From Candidatus Chromulinivoraceae bacterium (GTDB lineage: Bacteria > Patescibacteriota > Saccharimonadia > Saccharimonadales > Saccharimonadaceae), in contig DATIJL010000015.1 of NCBI GenBank assembly GCA_035478595.1, positions 1 to 34,307 of the forward strand: a stretch of 34,307 bases of DNA, written 5' to 3'. The position numbers and the translations under genes are program-made. The notes under the pieces are model-generated. The model was not told where the DNA came from. It ran no database searches and worked only from the letters and a program-made list of their open reading frames with translations. Shown here in pieces: positions 68 through 32,072 of the stretch. The first letter of the stretch is position 1. Each line of letters starts with the position of its first letter.

Positions 68-289
68 ATGACTCAAACCATAAGCACAATAAAAGACCGT
101 ATTAAAGCGTATAAACAACACATTGATGAGCGAGCCTCAACACTAATGGGGTACCCAGAAAGCATGCATTTCGACTACTCTCCACTCAGCGATTTTATGA
201 ATTACAACATTGATAATCTGGGCGATCCGTATTCCGATCTTCTCTATGGAGTAAATTCATGTGAGTTCGAGCGAGAAGTGATTTCTTAT
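68..289 (+). pseudogene. 5' fragment of a PLP-dependent histidine decarboxylase gene
   Basis: The first ~74 codons read as the N-terminus of a group II pyridoxal-phosphate histidine decarboxylase, recognisable from GYPES, FDYS, a (N)I-N-x-GD segment and NS-EFEREV-YF, in the order seen in bacterial histidine decarboxylases. The full enzyme is about 380 residues and converts histidine to histamine. Here homology stops after ..ISYF, before the PLP lysine and nearly all of the catalytic domain, because the reading frame enters the 3' half of a tRNA-Gln at about base 290. The frame runs on to 349, but that tail is tRNA and terminator sequence. No good Shine-Dalgarno precedes the ATG. The fragment is probably non-functional in this arrangement; the missing part may lie at the other end of an integrated element outside the window. 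The family call rests on remembered motifs. Confidence 0.65.
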
Positions 290-334
290 TTTTGGTCCAT
301 GCATTCGGGGGTTCGAATCCCTCCACCCCAGCCA
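290..334 (+). other. 3' half of tRNA-Gln(UUG): probable attachment-site junction
   Basis: Reading backwards from CCA (332-334) there is discriminator G331, acceptor 3' strand CACCCCA (324-330), a T arm GGGGG-TTCGAAT-CCCTC (307-323), variable loop CATTC (302-306), anticodon-stem 3' strand CCATG (297-301) and a loop containing TTG (292-294). The acceptor and discriminator match tRNA-Gln. The expected 5' strand CATGG is absent upstream; histidine decarboxylase coding sequence is there instead. The break therefore falls in the anticodon loop, a typical crossover point for tRNA-targeting integrases. The integrated DNA should lie to the left. Confidence 0.75.
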
Positions 335-2370: not shown

Positions 2371-2567
2371 TCATAATTTATCGTCATCTTCGTTAAGAGA
2401 ATTATCGAGTAACATCCTAATCTCAGCAATATTACACTTTAAATCTTGATCAAAAAGTTGGAATACGTCCCTTCTCTCCAGCCATGAAGAACGAAGCTCA
2501 TTTTCGAGGTTCGTTTTTTGTTCTCACCTCTGTTATTTTGATCATTTTCTAAAGTTTGGTTGGTCAT
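2371..2567 (-). pseudogene. Small ORF downstream of recombinase, interrupted by a -1 frameshift
   Basis: The ATG (2565-2567) sits 2 bases after the recombinase stop, with GGAGAG as ribosome-binding site. The zero frame runs 42 codons and stops at 2439. The -1 frame is a convincing protein (..NLENELRSSW, then VFQLFDQDL and LLDNSLNEDDDKL) ending at 2371, but it has no start of its own: it has a TGA just before a run of six A (complement of 2514-2519). Joining the frames at that A-run gives a 65-residue acidic, helical protein. This is either a recently broken gene, a homopolymer sequencing error or programmed -1 frameshifting on AAA-AAA-C. The function is unknown; the position suggests an accessory protein of the recombinase. 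Confidence 0.55.
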
Positions 2568-2569
2568 CT

Positions 2570-4072
2570 TCACTCTCCTAATAAATCGTGGGTTAATTGA
2601 ACGTTTTCAGCTATTGCTCGGGCGAACTCTGTGTATGTAACAGATACACCAGCATCGCCAGATGATACATTGGTAAATAGTTTGGTCATAATGAATCGTT
2701 TCTGCTCAGGTGTCTTTTTTGCGTAGAATAAACCTGCCTTCTGAGTTAGTTCTAACAACACGAGGTCGTGTTTCAATTGTTGTGCTGACGTGACGTCTAG
2801 CTTACTCAGTTGATGGGTGAGCTCTGCTTTTTGTGTCATGAGCTGTTCATGTTTCACCTGATACCTTTCTTGGTTTATATCTCCAGATAGCTTGTCGTCG
2901 TAGAGGCTGTCGTCCATACGCTGGATTCGGTCAATCTGCAGTCGAATTGACGAAACGAGCTTCTCTTGGTTGCCTGCGGCATCTTCTTGCTCCTTCCGCA
3001 TCGCATCAGCCACCCATCCAATTATCTCCGACGACGGACAAAGGAGTTTAGCGAGTAGATCTGCAACCTGAGCCTCGATCTTATCTTCACGTATGAACTT
3101 TCTCTGCTTACAGGCATCACTTTTTCTTTGACATGCGCCATAATAGCGGCCTTTTTGCTTTTGCCATGTCACCACGCCACCGCAGCCGTTGCAGGTAATC
3201 ATATTCTTAAAGATGGGGTTGTGTTGCTTAAGAACAACCGGTCGACCTTTATGCATTTTCTGCTGCACTTGCTCGAAGAGTTCTTTGCTAATAAGAGGCT
3301 CCTGAGCACCTGGGTACTCCTTACCGTTATGACGGTTAATCCCAATATAAAATGGATTGCTAAGCATCTTCTGGACTTTACTTTTTGCGTAAGGCCGTCC
3401 TTTTCTTGTACGTACACCCATACGATCTAACTCAACCATTACTGAATTAATGGACTGATTTGGATCGAGATACAGTTTAAACGCCTGTTGAATCAGGTGC
3501 TTCGTGTCAGGATTTGGGATATGAATACGTTTGCCGCTTTCTGTAATAGTCATATAGCCAGGAGGTGGTACGCCAGGTAACCAGCCTTGTGCGAGCTTTT
3601 CAGCCCAACCTTTCATTGCTTCTTCCCGTAAGTTGTCGGTGTATTTCTTTGCTACCGATAGGTTAATATTCCACATAAACTTAACGTCAGACTTTGCTTC
3701 TTTATGAAGGAGGAGGTTTTCTTTCACCGCATGAAGTCTGCGATTTGGATCTTGGTCGAGCCAGTCATCTATTGCGACAGCGTCACGGAAGTTACGCGTA
3801 AAACGATCGGTCTTTTCAACGGCGAGATGATACACCTTATTCTTGGAAATGTAGGCTAACATTTCATGAAAGACCTTACGGCTCTGTTCTTTTGAAGCTG
3901 TCTCGGCAATCTTAAAGGTCTTCACGACACGAAGCCCTTTATTTTCACAGTAACCGCATAGTAGTTTCAATTGTGAATCAAGAGAGTAGCCTTCGTCTTC
4001 TTGAGACTTACTCGATACGCGAGCTAAGATAACGGTTGCAGATTGTTGCTGTGTGTCGACTGCCGTTTTCAT
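2570..4072 (-). CDS. Large serine recombinase (site-specific integrase)
   Basis: 500 residues, the usual size for a large serine recombinase. The resolvase-type catalytic domain covers ~12-150, with the nucleophile in ARVSS (Ser20) and the arginine motif DRFTRN (~89-94). The recombinase domain follows at ~165-275 (GWLPGVPPPGY, then SKVQKMLSNPFYIG). A zinc ribbon has Cys294, Cys297, Cys314 and Cys321, and a coiled coil covers ~350-430. Such enzymes insert or excise mobile elements between short attP/attB sites. The start codon overlaps the stop of the 65-residue gene upstream (ATGA), so the two are translationally coupled, and another small gene follows 2 bases later. It looks intact. The crossover in the tRNA-Gln anticodon loop at 290 is more typical of a tyrosine integrase, so I do not assume that this enzyme made that junction. 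Confidence 0.9.
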   Translation of the reverse strand: MKTAVDTQQQSATVILARVSSKSQEDEGYSLDSQLKLLCGYCENKGLRVVKTFKIAETASKEQSRKVFHEMLAYISKNKVYHLAVEKTDRFTRNFRDAVAIDDWLDQDPNRRLHAVKENLLLHKEAKSDVKFMWNINLSVAKKYTDNLREEAMKGWAEKLAQGWLPGVPPPGYMTITESGKRIHIPNPDTKHLIQQAFKLYLDPNQSINSVMVELDRMGVRTRKGRPYAKSKVQKMLSNPFYIGINRHNGKEYPGAQEPLISKELFEQVQQKMHKGRPVVLKQHNPIFKNMITCNGCGGVVTWQKQKGRYYGACQRKSDACKQRKFIREDKIEAQVADLLAKLLCPSSEIIGWVADAMRKEQEDAAGNQEKLVSSIRLQIDRIQRMDDSLYDDKLSGDINQERYQVKHEQLMTQKAELTHQLSKLDVTSAQQLKHDLVLLELTQKAGLFYAKKTPEQKRFIMTKLFTNVSSGDAGVSVTYTEFARAIAENVQLTHDLLGE

Positions 4073-4384: not shown

Positions 4385-4603
4385 CTATTTACCGAAAATA
4401 TCTGCTGATGTAACGCCAAGAGCGTCGATGATACTTAAGATAACGGTGGTAGTTGGATTCTTTTCGGCTCGTTCAATTTGAGCATAGTATGTTTCGCTGA
4501 TGCCAGCTTTTTTGGCGACTTCAACTTGCGTCATGTGACGCTCGCGTCGAACAGCACGAAGCCTTTTGGCTGTTTTTTGAAGTGAGACTTTATCATCCGC
4601 CAT
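4385..4603 (-). CDS. XRE-family (Cro/C1-type) HTH regulator
   Basis: 72 residues starting at MADDKV. The frame extends 37 codons further upstream, but that part covers the promoter and reads as non-protein-like. One HTH domain fills the protein: LRAVRRERHMTQVEVAKKAG is helices 1-2, ISETYYAQIERAEKNP the recognition helix and turn, and TTVILSIIDALGV the closing helices. A TACAAT -10 ends about 10 bases before the ATG, so the mRNA is probably leaderless. It lies upstream of the recombinase operon with palindromes in the gap, like an element-maintenance repressor. Confidence 0.85.
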   Translation of the reverse strand: MADDKVSLQKTAKRLRAVRRERHMTQVEVAKKAGISETYYAQIERAEKNPTTTVILSIIDALGVTSADIFGK

Positions 4604-4702
4604 AGTGCCTATTATTGTAACATAGAGAGGTTCTTTTACCCTTACGCTGTCCTTTTTTTGCGAGCAAGGGTATGCTATAAAGAGAAAGCTGAGAATTGTA
4701 TA

Positions 4703-4981
4703 ATGACCGATCAAGCATCAACTAAACTAACCATTCGAGAAGATAGGCCAACCGCACTTTCAAGTGCAATATACGGAGCAAATCTTAATGCCGTTGGTTT
4801 TAATATTGCGCTTATCGCACTCAGAGATCCAAAGCTTGCCACTGCTATTGTGAAGCTCTACGCCAAGGCGCACAAAATACAGGAGAGTGACCGGCAAGCT
4901 CCCGACGAAGATCTTGAGCTATTCATGGATGAATTCACAATCATATTGTCAAACACGTCAGACGACACAATCAATGAGTAA
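4703..4981 (+). CDS. Hypothetical protein, 92 residues
   Basis: I start at ATG 4703 (MTDQAST..) rather than 45 bases upstream, because TATAAA (4675-4680) is a likely -10 and would lie inside the longer version. The protein is acidic, with a hydrophobic helical middle (NLNAVGFNIALIALRDPKLATAIVKLY split by charged residues) and a C-terminus rich in D/E. It has no signal peptide and no family I recognise. It is transcribed away from the XRE gene and ends just before a strong terminator, so it is a single-gene unit. Confidence 0.6.
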   Translation: MTDQASTKLTIREDRPTALSSAIYGANLNAVGFNIALIALRDPKLATAIVKLYAKAHKIQESDRQAPDEDLELFMDEFTIILSNTSDDTINE

Positions 4982-5251: not shown

Positions 5252-6058
5252 ATGAAACAACTCCCTCACATCACCAAGAAACAACAAGAACTACTCTTAC
5301 TACTCTATCGATACAGATTCATTAACACGAGACAGATAGAACTATTAATGCATCTTAAAGATAAAAAGCGTATGGGAGTATGGTTAAAGGATCTCAGAGA
5401 AAAGGGATATGTCGAGTGGATCTATACAGCCAGCCTTGAACAAAAACGAAAACCAGCCATCTACTATCTAGCGCTTAATGGCATCCGATATCTCACATCA
5501 TTGAACACGTACCCAATCGCTGAGATACGCAAACGATATAAAGAATCTACTCGAAAGGTTGATTTCATAGCAAGGTCGCTGCTTCTCGTTGACTGTGCAA
5601 TCCATCTTGATGTGCGTAATTCCAGCTCTGACGAACTTGAATATACATTTGCTACACGAGCTGATTATATTGACCCAGAAAGTGATTACCACTTCCTGAC
5701 TGAGCCAAGCCCTGACCTGTTCATCGAGAAACAAGAGGATGTAGCGGGGGAGACCATAACAACAAACTATCTCACCCATATATTTGGCACCACTACACCA
5801 CGCTATACAGTGCGTAAACAACTCAAAGATTACGTCATGTATCTTTATGACGGTGATTGGCGGTCGGAACTAGATTGCGATGAGTTCATCATTCACGTCA
5901 TATGTCCGACCAAGACTGACCTTCTCTACGCAAAGCGACGCACACATCTACTTCTTGAGGATATTGGACAAGAAGAGGATACGCATATTCGATTTGCTAC
6001 TGTAGACCAAGTTAGACAAGAGGGGATTACCGGGTTTATTTGGGAAGAGGTTAACTAG
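5252..6058 (+). CDS. Replication-relaxation (Replic_Relax) family protein
   Basis: 268 residues. The N-terminus (~5-75) is a winged helix: ITKKQQELLLLLYRYRFI, NTRQIELLMHL and the wing-like LKDLREKGYVEWIY; the middle and C-terminus are a mixed domain with YLALNGIRYL and LFIEKQEDV. This layout matches the Replic_Relax family, found on plasmids and integrated elements and thought to act in replication initiation or relaxation. There is no Shine-Dalgarno: the ~190-base leader before it is A/C-rich and carries no convincing gene. The neighbours (recombinase, XRE) support a mobile-element origin. Family assignment is by pattern only. Confidence 0.65.
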   Translation: MKQLPHITKKQQELLLLLYRYRFINTRQIELLMHLKDKKRMGVWLKDLREKGYVEWIYTASLEQKRKPAIYYLALNGIRYLTSLNTYPIAEIRKRYKESTRKVDFIARSLLLVDCAIHLDVRNSSSDELEYTFATRADYIDPESDYHFLTEPSPDLFIEKQEDVAGETITTNYLTHIFGTTTPRYTVRKQLKDYVMYLYDGDWRSELDCDEFIIHVICPTKTDLLYAKRRTHLLLEDIGQEEDTHIRFATVDQVRQEGITGFIWEEVN

Positions 6059-24017: not shown

Positions 24018-24539
24018 ATGACAGATGAAAAAGAACTAATAGAAGCAATCATCACGAAAGATAACGAGTTATATCGTAGCCTTGTCGACCGCTACAAAAC
24101 AGGACTCATTATTCACTGCGAACATATAGTGAAGGATCGAGAGCAAGCAGAAGATATAGCTCAAGAAGCATTTATCAAAGCGTACTATCAACTGAATAAA
24201 TTTAATCCAGACAAGGGACGGTTCTCAACCTGGCTCTACAGAATCGCAACCAATACCGCGCTCGATTATTTACGTAAGAATAAACATCAGGTAAATGTCG
24301 AAGAAATCGAATTACGCGCGGACGAAACAATGCCAGTGAATCTTGAAGAAGACGAGAGACAGGTTATTCGAGATGCCATTACAACGCTTGAACCTCCAAA
24401 ATATGGCGCTGTGATTAAAGCATATTTTTGGGAAGGGAAGAGCTACGGCGAAATTGCCAAGCAGTACGATACGACAACAGGCACGATAGGAACATGGATA
24501 CGTCGAGCAAAAGCTCAGCTAAAGGAGAAACTAGTATGA
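24018..24539 (+). CDS. ECF-type sigma factor (second copy)
   Basis: 173 residues from ATG 24018; a GTG 15 bases upstream is possible. Region 2: LVDRYKTGLIIHCEHI, REQAEDIAQEAFIKAYYQL, STWLYRIATNTALDYLRKN. Region 4: PPKYGAVIKAYFWEGKSYGE, IAKQYDTTTGTIGTWIRRA. Clearly paralogous to the sigma factor at 20527. Overlaps the downstream anti-sigma-like gene by ATGA. Confidence 0.9.
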   Translation: MTDEKELIEAIITKDNELYRSLVDRYKTGLIIHCEHIVKDREQAEDIAQEAFIKAYYQLNKFNPDKGRFSTWLYRIATNTALDYLRKNKHQVNVEEIELRADETMPVNLEEDERQVIRDAITTLEPPKYGAVIKAYFWEGKSYGEIAKQYDTTTGTIGTWIRRAKAQLKEKLV

Positions 24540-31399: not shown

Positions 31400-31429
31400 T
31401 TGTGCTTGATGTTACGTACCTGATACAAT
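31400..31429 (+). promoter_or_regulatory. Promoter of the surface-protein gene
   Basis: TTGTGC (31400-31405), 18-base spacer, TACAAT (31424-31429). The start at ATG 31440 is only ~4 bases from the predicted start site, so the mRNA is almost leaderless. Confidence 0.6.
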
Positions 31430-31439
31430 GAGCTCAAGC

Positions 31440-32072
31440 ATGGCAAGATTACCTGTACCTAACGGTGATGACGGCAATTGGGGTACGCTACTCAATGAGT
31501 TTTTAGGAGTAGCGCATAACAGTGACGGGACTCTCACACCCTCAGCCGTTACTAATATCGGGACAGAATTACTTGCAAACAAGAACCAATCCGGCGGGTA
31601 TGCTGGTCTAGATGGTAGCGGTCGCGTTGCCGCCGCTCAGCTTCCCACTCCTACTAGCATAGCGGCGTATATAGGAGTTGAGGCGAGTGGCCCTACTATC
31701 TTGAATAAGACATTCACCCAAGTGGCTTTTACTGGTATTACCGCACAGCTGGATACTGCAAGTATCAGTTGGAATAGCGGCTCACCATCTATCGTGACTA
31801 TACTACAGACTGGCGTTTATTCGGTGACGGCAGGTGTTTATTGGAGAGACGCGGGACTAACCGGTCCGATCACTCTACAAATACTCTCCAGCTGCCAATT
31901 TAATTTCGCTGATGTTCGCCCAGCGATAGGGGATGGTGTTACAGAATCCCAACAGTTTCTTACTGCGACTATGTATCTACAGACGGGACAGGGGATTAAC
32001 CTGAACATCGAACAGTCTACCGGAACCACCCTAACGCCCTATATTACTATGCTAGTAACGCGCTGCACCTAA
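31440..32072 (+). CDS. Surface/tail-fibre-like protein with Saccharibacteria-type N-terminus
   Basis: 210 residues from the second ATG (MARLPVP..); the first ATG (31428) lies inside the -10. The N-terminus PNGDDGNWGTLLNEFLG then AHNSDGTLTP and LDGSGRVAAAQLP is the phage-tail-fibre/collar-like motif that recurs in Saccharibacteria surface proteins. The C-terminal ~130 residues are beta-rich (TFTQVAFTGITAQLDTASI, GVYSVTAGVYWRDAG, QSTGTTLTPYITMLVTR) like a C1q/TNF jelly-roll. It probably forms trimers; no signal peptide is visible, so export may be through an unknown route. Confidence 0.75.
   Translation: MARLPVPNGDDGNWGTLLNEFLGVAHNSDGTLTPSAVTNIGTELLANKNQSGGYAGLDGSGRVAAAQLPTPTSIAAYIGVEASGPTILNKTFTQVAFTGITAQLDTASISWNSGSPSIVTILQTGVYSVTAGVYWRDAGLTGPITLQILSSCQFNFADVRPAIGDGVTESQQFLTATMYLQTGQGINLNIEQSTGTTLTPYITMLVTRCT

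Follow-up and report, generated by a model that had tools for sequence, protein, structure and literature searches.

The closest described counterparts of the locus analyzed here are the SCC and ECC islands, integrons, and the tRNA-targeted islands and ICEs. SCC and ECC, the staphylococcal and enterococcal cassette chromosomes, have large serine recombinases (Ccr), insert at the 3' end of a gene without destroying it, and carry direct-repeat att sites, with extra att sites in composite islands. For ECC, the number of att hits reported per genome is below five (PMC6222049). In integrons (IntI, attC), small gene cassettes are lined up in tandem and in one direction behind an anchor site that is fixed, and related cassette genes occur across rows. 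The tRNA-targeted islands and ICEs use the 3' end of a tRNA gene, which the incoming DNA restores, and leave displaced tRNA fragments at their far end; their enzyme is a tyrosine integrase.

The arrays described below share these features, the tyrosine integrase excepted, but differ from each of the systems. The target is tRNA-Gln or tRNA-Trp rather than rlmH, and the recombinase is only distantly CcrB-like and cannot be classed as CcrA, CcrB, or CcrC. The same-strand rows match the direct-repeat att sites of composite tandem SCC islands, whereas the units are often of one or two genes, each unit having its own terminator, and rows reach about ten sites. Unlike in integrons, IntI is missing, a short sequence motif serves as the site and a tRNA gene as the anchor, and the recombinase is of the serine family and lies inside some of the elements instead of being fixed beside the anchor. 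In contrast to the tRNA-targeted islands, no tyrosine integrase was found at these loci, and a serine recombinase is resident. For all its likeness to integrons and SCC islands, the array is a member of neither group. In the literature searched, we found no prior description of such tRNA-anchored serine-recombinase arrays; one may exist. We lean cautiously towards an integron-like capture platform, in which the tRNA gene would serve as anchor while a large serine recombinase, often acting in trans from conjugative elements, would insert and shuffle small terminator-led cassettes. The surveyed relatives are small-genome bacteria, probably Patescibacteria, and gene gain in such genomes is poorly understood. 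If the platform is real, integrons would have a counterpart based on a serine recombinase, and, with the anchor fixed, the site defined, and the cassettes recognizable, gene acquisition could be counted in every genome of this kind and tested in the laboratory.

The window, i.e., the whole stretch of 34,307 bases that was analyzed, is an entire contig (C15) of a 1.14-Mb genome assembled in 19 contigs, which its size and gene content mark as probably that of a Saccharibacterium-like member of the Patescibacteria. Its first feature is the 5' stub of a histidine decarboxylase (HDC) gene (68–289, + strand), encoding residues 1–74 according to its translation and family match (NF002748), with 73% identity to a copy on contig C18. 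The HDC reading ends at base 289, and at base 290 positions 31–75 of tRNA-Gln(UUG) begin. The segment 290–334 is 100% identical to these positions in the intact tRNA-Gln(UUG) genes of relatives, the identity beginning at the first base of the anticodon loop. The E-value of this 45-nt match (about 1e-18) excludes chance. The HDC match and the tRNA identity together confirm what had been read from the sequence alone, namely, that the 5' part of a decarboxylase is joined to the 3' half of tRNA-Gln at the anticodon loop. Neither ARAGORN nor Rfam identified a complete tRNA in the window. The tRNA piece (290–334, + strand) constitutes the left arm and the CCCCAGCCA core (326–334) of the first array site, and a terminator-like hairpin with a T-run (about 351–386, + strand, identified in the sequence 3' of it) opens the first cassette.

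This cassette extends from 335 to 2475 or 2484, being delimited by the GCCA at 334 and by the next site at 2452–2489. Besides the terminator and the left arm of that next site, it contains as cargo an alpha/beta hydrolase with a DUF3887-like N-terminus (407–1696, − strand; Pfam) and a MarR/HTH-like regulator (1831–2268, + strand; Pfam match below the curated cut-off). Judged by its layout, 335–2484 looks like a mobile cassette. The attachment site at 2452–2489 (+ strand) consists of the left arm AAAAAGTTGGAATACGTCCCTTCT, the core CTCCAGCCA (2476–2484), and the right arm TGAAG. It is one of the training sites and scores 25–26 bits with models R1 and R2 and 39 with the PWM; shuffled sequence gives no match. 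The first site (290–334) is weak (PWM 10.3; model R2 16.4 bits at 317–339), since its left arm is tRNA and not the usual cassette arm. Immediately after the second core lies TGAAGAACGAAGCTCATTTTCGAGGTTCG (2485–2569, + strand), the conserved right-hand or P' terminus of a recombinase element; in relatives the same P' end directly follows the GCCA of a tRNA or the CCCCAGCCA of a cassette. The adjacent gene encodes a large serine recombinase of 500 aa (2570–4072, − strand), whose Resolvase, Recombinase, and zinc-ribbon domains all exceed the Pfam cut-offs, while its best NCBIfam matches, CcrB and XisF, are below cut-off (93.8 bits vs. 900 for CcrB). An HTH_3 regulator upstream of the recombinase (4385–4714, − strand; Pfam) and a replication-relaxation-like protein (5252–6058, + strand; Pfam Replic_Relax) probably belong to the element, and in genome G004 a recombinase 77% identical to this one likewise precedes genes of an element. 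The notion that the tRNA half is only the displaced end of the serine recombinase's own element was rejected, as that junction is at 2476, with a 9-nt core. At 31428–32072 the window encodes a protein without a Pfam family, which shares an N-terminus like MARLPxPGSDxxxWGxxLNxFLxVxHxxDGT, followed by varied C-termini, with L028:1578–2501 and L138:5853–7286; proteins of this MARLPxPGSD type recur in this genome and its relatives.

The attachment-site model, which takes account of sequence only, was a profile built from 13 sites. As these were first noticed near tRNAs, all tests rely on hits that were not used in training or that come from outside the class. In relatives, tandem same-strand rows of small cassettes, with a site between each, are located 3' of tRNA-Gln or tRNA-Trp. 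Among 32 non-training hits (E ≤ 1e-3), 23 could be placed against a tRNA-Gln or tRNA-Trp on their own contig, and all 23 are on the strand of the tRNA, on its 3' side, and within 27 kb; no site was matched in shuffled sequence. In G023, assembled as a single contig, 11 of the 13 hits listed fall within 30 kb behind two tRNA-Gln genes (binomial p about 2e-16). The rows comprise seven sites over 11 kb behind tRNA-Gln(UUG) in G050, all in one direction, ten sites behind one of the two tRNA-Gln genes of G023 with further sites following the second, five in G008, and four in G013, the weakest sites in these rows scoring barely above the threshold. A second profile found sites in 16 of 380 genomes of the phylum (E ≤ 1e-3; about 0.4 expected). 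Outside the class, the sites of G592, G471, G355, and G580 are again on the same strand and 3' of tRNA-Gln or tRNA-Trp; for the G007 site, neither tRNA was found within 12 kb upstream. The genome of the window has a second array (C3:14876, 15634, and 27661), which opens with a 25-nt tRNA-Gln tail and has no complete tRNA within the stretch examined.

In the window, G004, and G185, one or two small cassettes separate the tRNA from the conserved element end, and every such cassette finishes in a left arm of roughly 24 nt followed by C(C/T)CCAGCCA. Genes inside cassettes face both ways although the sites share one direction. Cargo in G050 includes NUDIX, HIT, glyoxalase-like, AHSA1, CDP-alcohol transferase, and GDPD proteins, and kindred genes are carried by arrays in different genera, behind different tRNAs. 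Terminator-like hairpins are present within 80 nt 3' of the core at 31 of 49 sites, as opposed to 2 of 49 matched upstream stretches, and look like terminators, so an incoming cassette would usually give the tRNA a new one. The hairpin behind the tRNA half of the window had been taken for the tRNA's own terminator; it does exist, but is not simply the tRNA's, because a hairpin soon after GCCA is frequently a part of incoming cassettes.

The association with tRNAs extends to the recombinases. Fourteen of 19 relatives of the window recombinase (about 45% identity or more) are encoded 3' of tRNA-Gln or tRNA-Trp and point at the tRNA, the gene end being 79–228 nt from it in 12 of the 14. Their elements start right after GCCA with the conserved end, and recombinase elements flanked by array sites are seen in G004 (44.0–67.8 kb), G103, and G048. 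The G004 element between two sites encodes VirB4- and VirD4-type proteins, i.e., some units are conjugative-like. An integrase had been expected on the contig to the left; the elements at tRNA-Gln carry large serine recombinases and not a tyrosine integrase. Several arrays, e.g., that of G023, are without a close homologue of the window recombinase, whose role there is presumed; the G023 array contains a different serine recombinase. At L138:3973–5811, also in G023, the 3' end of a serine recombinase gene runs through a truncated tRNA-Gln copy (GMEGLEPPNARS) inside the array.

Truncated tRNA copies are a recurrent mark of these sites. The 5'-truncated tRNA-Gln copies start mostly at positions 46–58, and also at 20, 31, and 41; the start at 31 in the window is unusual. 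G203 retains positions 17–75 of tRNA-Trp (59 nt, 100% identical) at the distal boundary of a recombinase element, with 8.3 kb between this copy and the intact gene. Arrays would account for such truncated copies of tRNA-Gln and tRNA-Trp, and by its sequence the first site of the window is such a truncated-tRNA array site with a longer left arm.

The sole intact tRNA-Gln(UUG) found in the genome (C16:4995–5069) has a U6–U67 mismatch in its acceptor stem that was seen in none of the relatives' intact tRNA-Gln genes compared. Its first 30 bases joined to window 290–334 form a valid tRNA-Gln with a perfect acceptor stem, and the folding energy of this modelled empty site is −27.4 kcal/mol, vs. −24.3 for the C16 gene. 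Since the mismatch vanishes when the two parts meet, they probably represent one former tRNA gene, split by an insertion that ends in the HDC stub. The C16 gene is then apparently a hybrid of two sources, its foreign 3' part having been supplied, we infer, by the inserted DNA. This split-gene reading would span contigs C15 and C16, which are unjoined in the assembly, their linkage being unproven, and a point mutation could also explain U67. The sequence-only reading, which saw here one end of an element integrated in tRNA-Gln and looked to a neighboring contig for the 5' half, thus holds in part. A displaced or copied tRNA end is present, of the kind that insertion at tRNA-Gln leaves, and U6–U67 disappears when the C16 5' part is joined to the window half; a restoration of HDC by excision is not supported. 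On contig C10, tRNA-Gln(CUG) has a G-U pair at 5–68 and might be of similar origin. Near the C16 tRNA-Gln, L026:5649–6251 encodes a DUF3558-like lipoprotein, presumably of a type associated with actinobacteria and possibly taken from a host bacterium.

We consider it somewhat more likely than not that the window preserves the first remaining site of an array begun at tRNA-Gln(UUG) and built by a serine recombinase, that a later insertion split the tRNA, and that the HDC stub is inert. In the proposed mechanism, an incoming circle would recombine at the 3' end of the tRNA, within or beside CCCC(A/T)GCCA. The tRNA would stay intact, a fresh terminator would usually arrive after the CCA, and older cassettes would move downstream. 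Each junction, as the anatomy of the sites shows, consists of the left arm of the new cassette, the core, and the right arm of the older one. The enzyme is most likely an array-borne large serine recombinase such as that at 2570–4072, which would also act on cassettes without a recombinase of their own. In the later insertion, the crossover would have fallen upstream of tRNA position 67, probably inside the anticodon loop or close to it, and would have parted the native 5' segment, which is now on C16 and completed by foreign 3' sequence, from its own 3' segment (window 290–334), the HDC stub being the distal end of the inserted DNA.

Among the alternatives, a small but real chance remains for a phage- or island-borne tyrosine integrase that inserted in the anticodon loop, making the window end attR and HDC element DNA, with the serine arrays unrelated. 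The tRNA match sets in precisely where the anticodon loop does, the usual crossover point of one tyrosine-integrase class, and a second fragment, on C17, also begins at position 31. However, the only tyrosine recombinase of the assembly is one Xer-like gene, and a search of this genome and 101 relatives, most of which have one tyrosine recombinase each, listed no integrase beside tRNA-Gln. Phage records searched for the HDC–tRNA junction did not contain it. The C17 fragment (24304–24339) covers positions 31–65 only, is without the GCCA end, and is close to the end of its contig.

It is unlikely that a short-homology deletion, with no mobile element involved, fused HDC to the anticodon loop of a downstream second tRNA-Gln(UUG) copy, destroying both. 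A T-run is common to both sides of the joint (HDC ...TATTT, tRNA TTTTGG), and the intact C16 gene would make the loss of a copy harmless; still, the ancestor must have had two tRNA-Gln(UUG) genes, and the repair of the C16 mismatch by the window half is left unexplained. We give little credence to an assembly chimera, in which unrelated HDC reads were joined to a tRNA repeat. The junction does have just 289 bases between it and the contig start, and the sequence there is present in several genomic copies. Against this, the HDC homologues read at the joint position (C18, Pedobacter) have no tRNA-like stretch there, and so offer no long common word for a false join. The sequence farther left is absent from the assembly, and the left end of C15 overlaps no other contig.

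As a PLP-dependent histidine decarboxylase, the stub belongs to the same family (NF002748) as the intact gene at C18:36827–37963, but its match to the family covers 73 residues (E = 1e-17) and reaches 63.9 bits where the cut-off is 305, which marks it as truncated, whereas the C18 copy scores 467 bits. Of about 380 residues it has the first 74 and stops short of the catalytic domain. Differences from the C18 copy are distributed over codon positions as 11/10/35, and this third-position excess (35 of 56) indicates that the stub evolved as a gene before truncation and worked until recently.

A switch, with the crossover inside HDC and excision rebuilding a working gene, is hardly credible: the stub is open and looks recently functional, but a whole-protein search of the assembly found the C18 gene and the stub only, with no 3' part of HDC anywhere, and at the modelled circle junction the stub runs into unrelated sequence; an intact HDC, moreover, is present on C18. 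Excision is therefore not expected to restore HDC, the remainder proposed to lie on another contig is absent, and nothing supports the suggested link between histamine production and the state of the element, the stub being already dead. We infer that it was truncated by the time it became the distal end of the inserted DNA and has no switching role.

HDC is rare, being present in 2 of 295 genomes of the family. The search for an uncut HDC at the tRNA site in relatives yielded one close homologue among these 295 genomes (G114, 65% identity); other relatives are two distant ones in the phylum, one in Pedobacter (43%), and some in plasmids (<60% identity), and no relative was confirmed in viral contigs. 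The intact gene on C18 is divergently transcribed from a full-length EutH-family transporter (L002:326–1432, − strand; PF04346, E = 3.5e-121). Judging from this gene context, HDC and the transporter could form an amine or histidine–histamine exchange pair.
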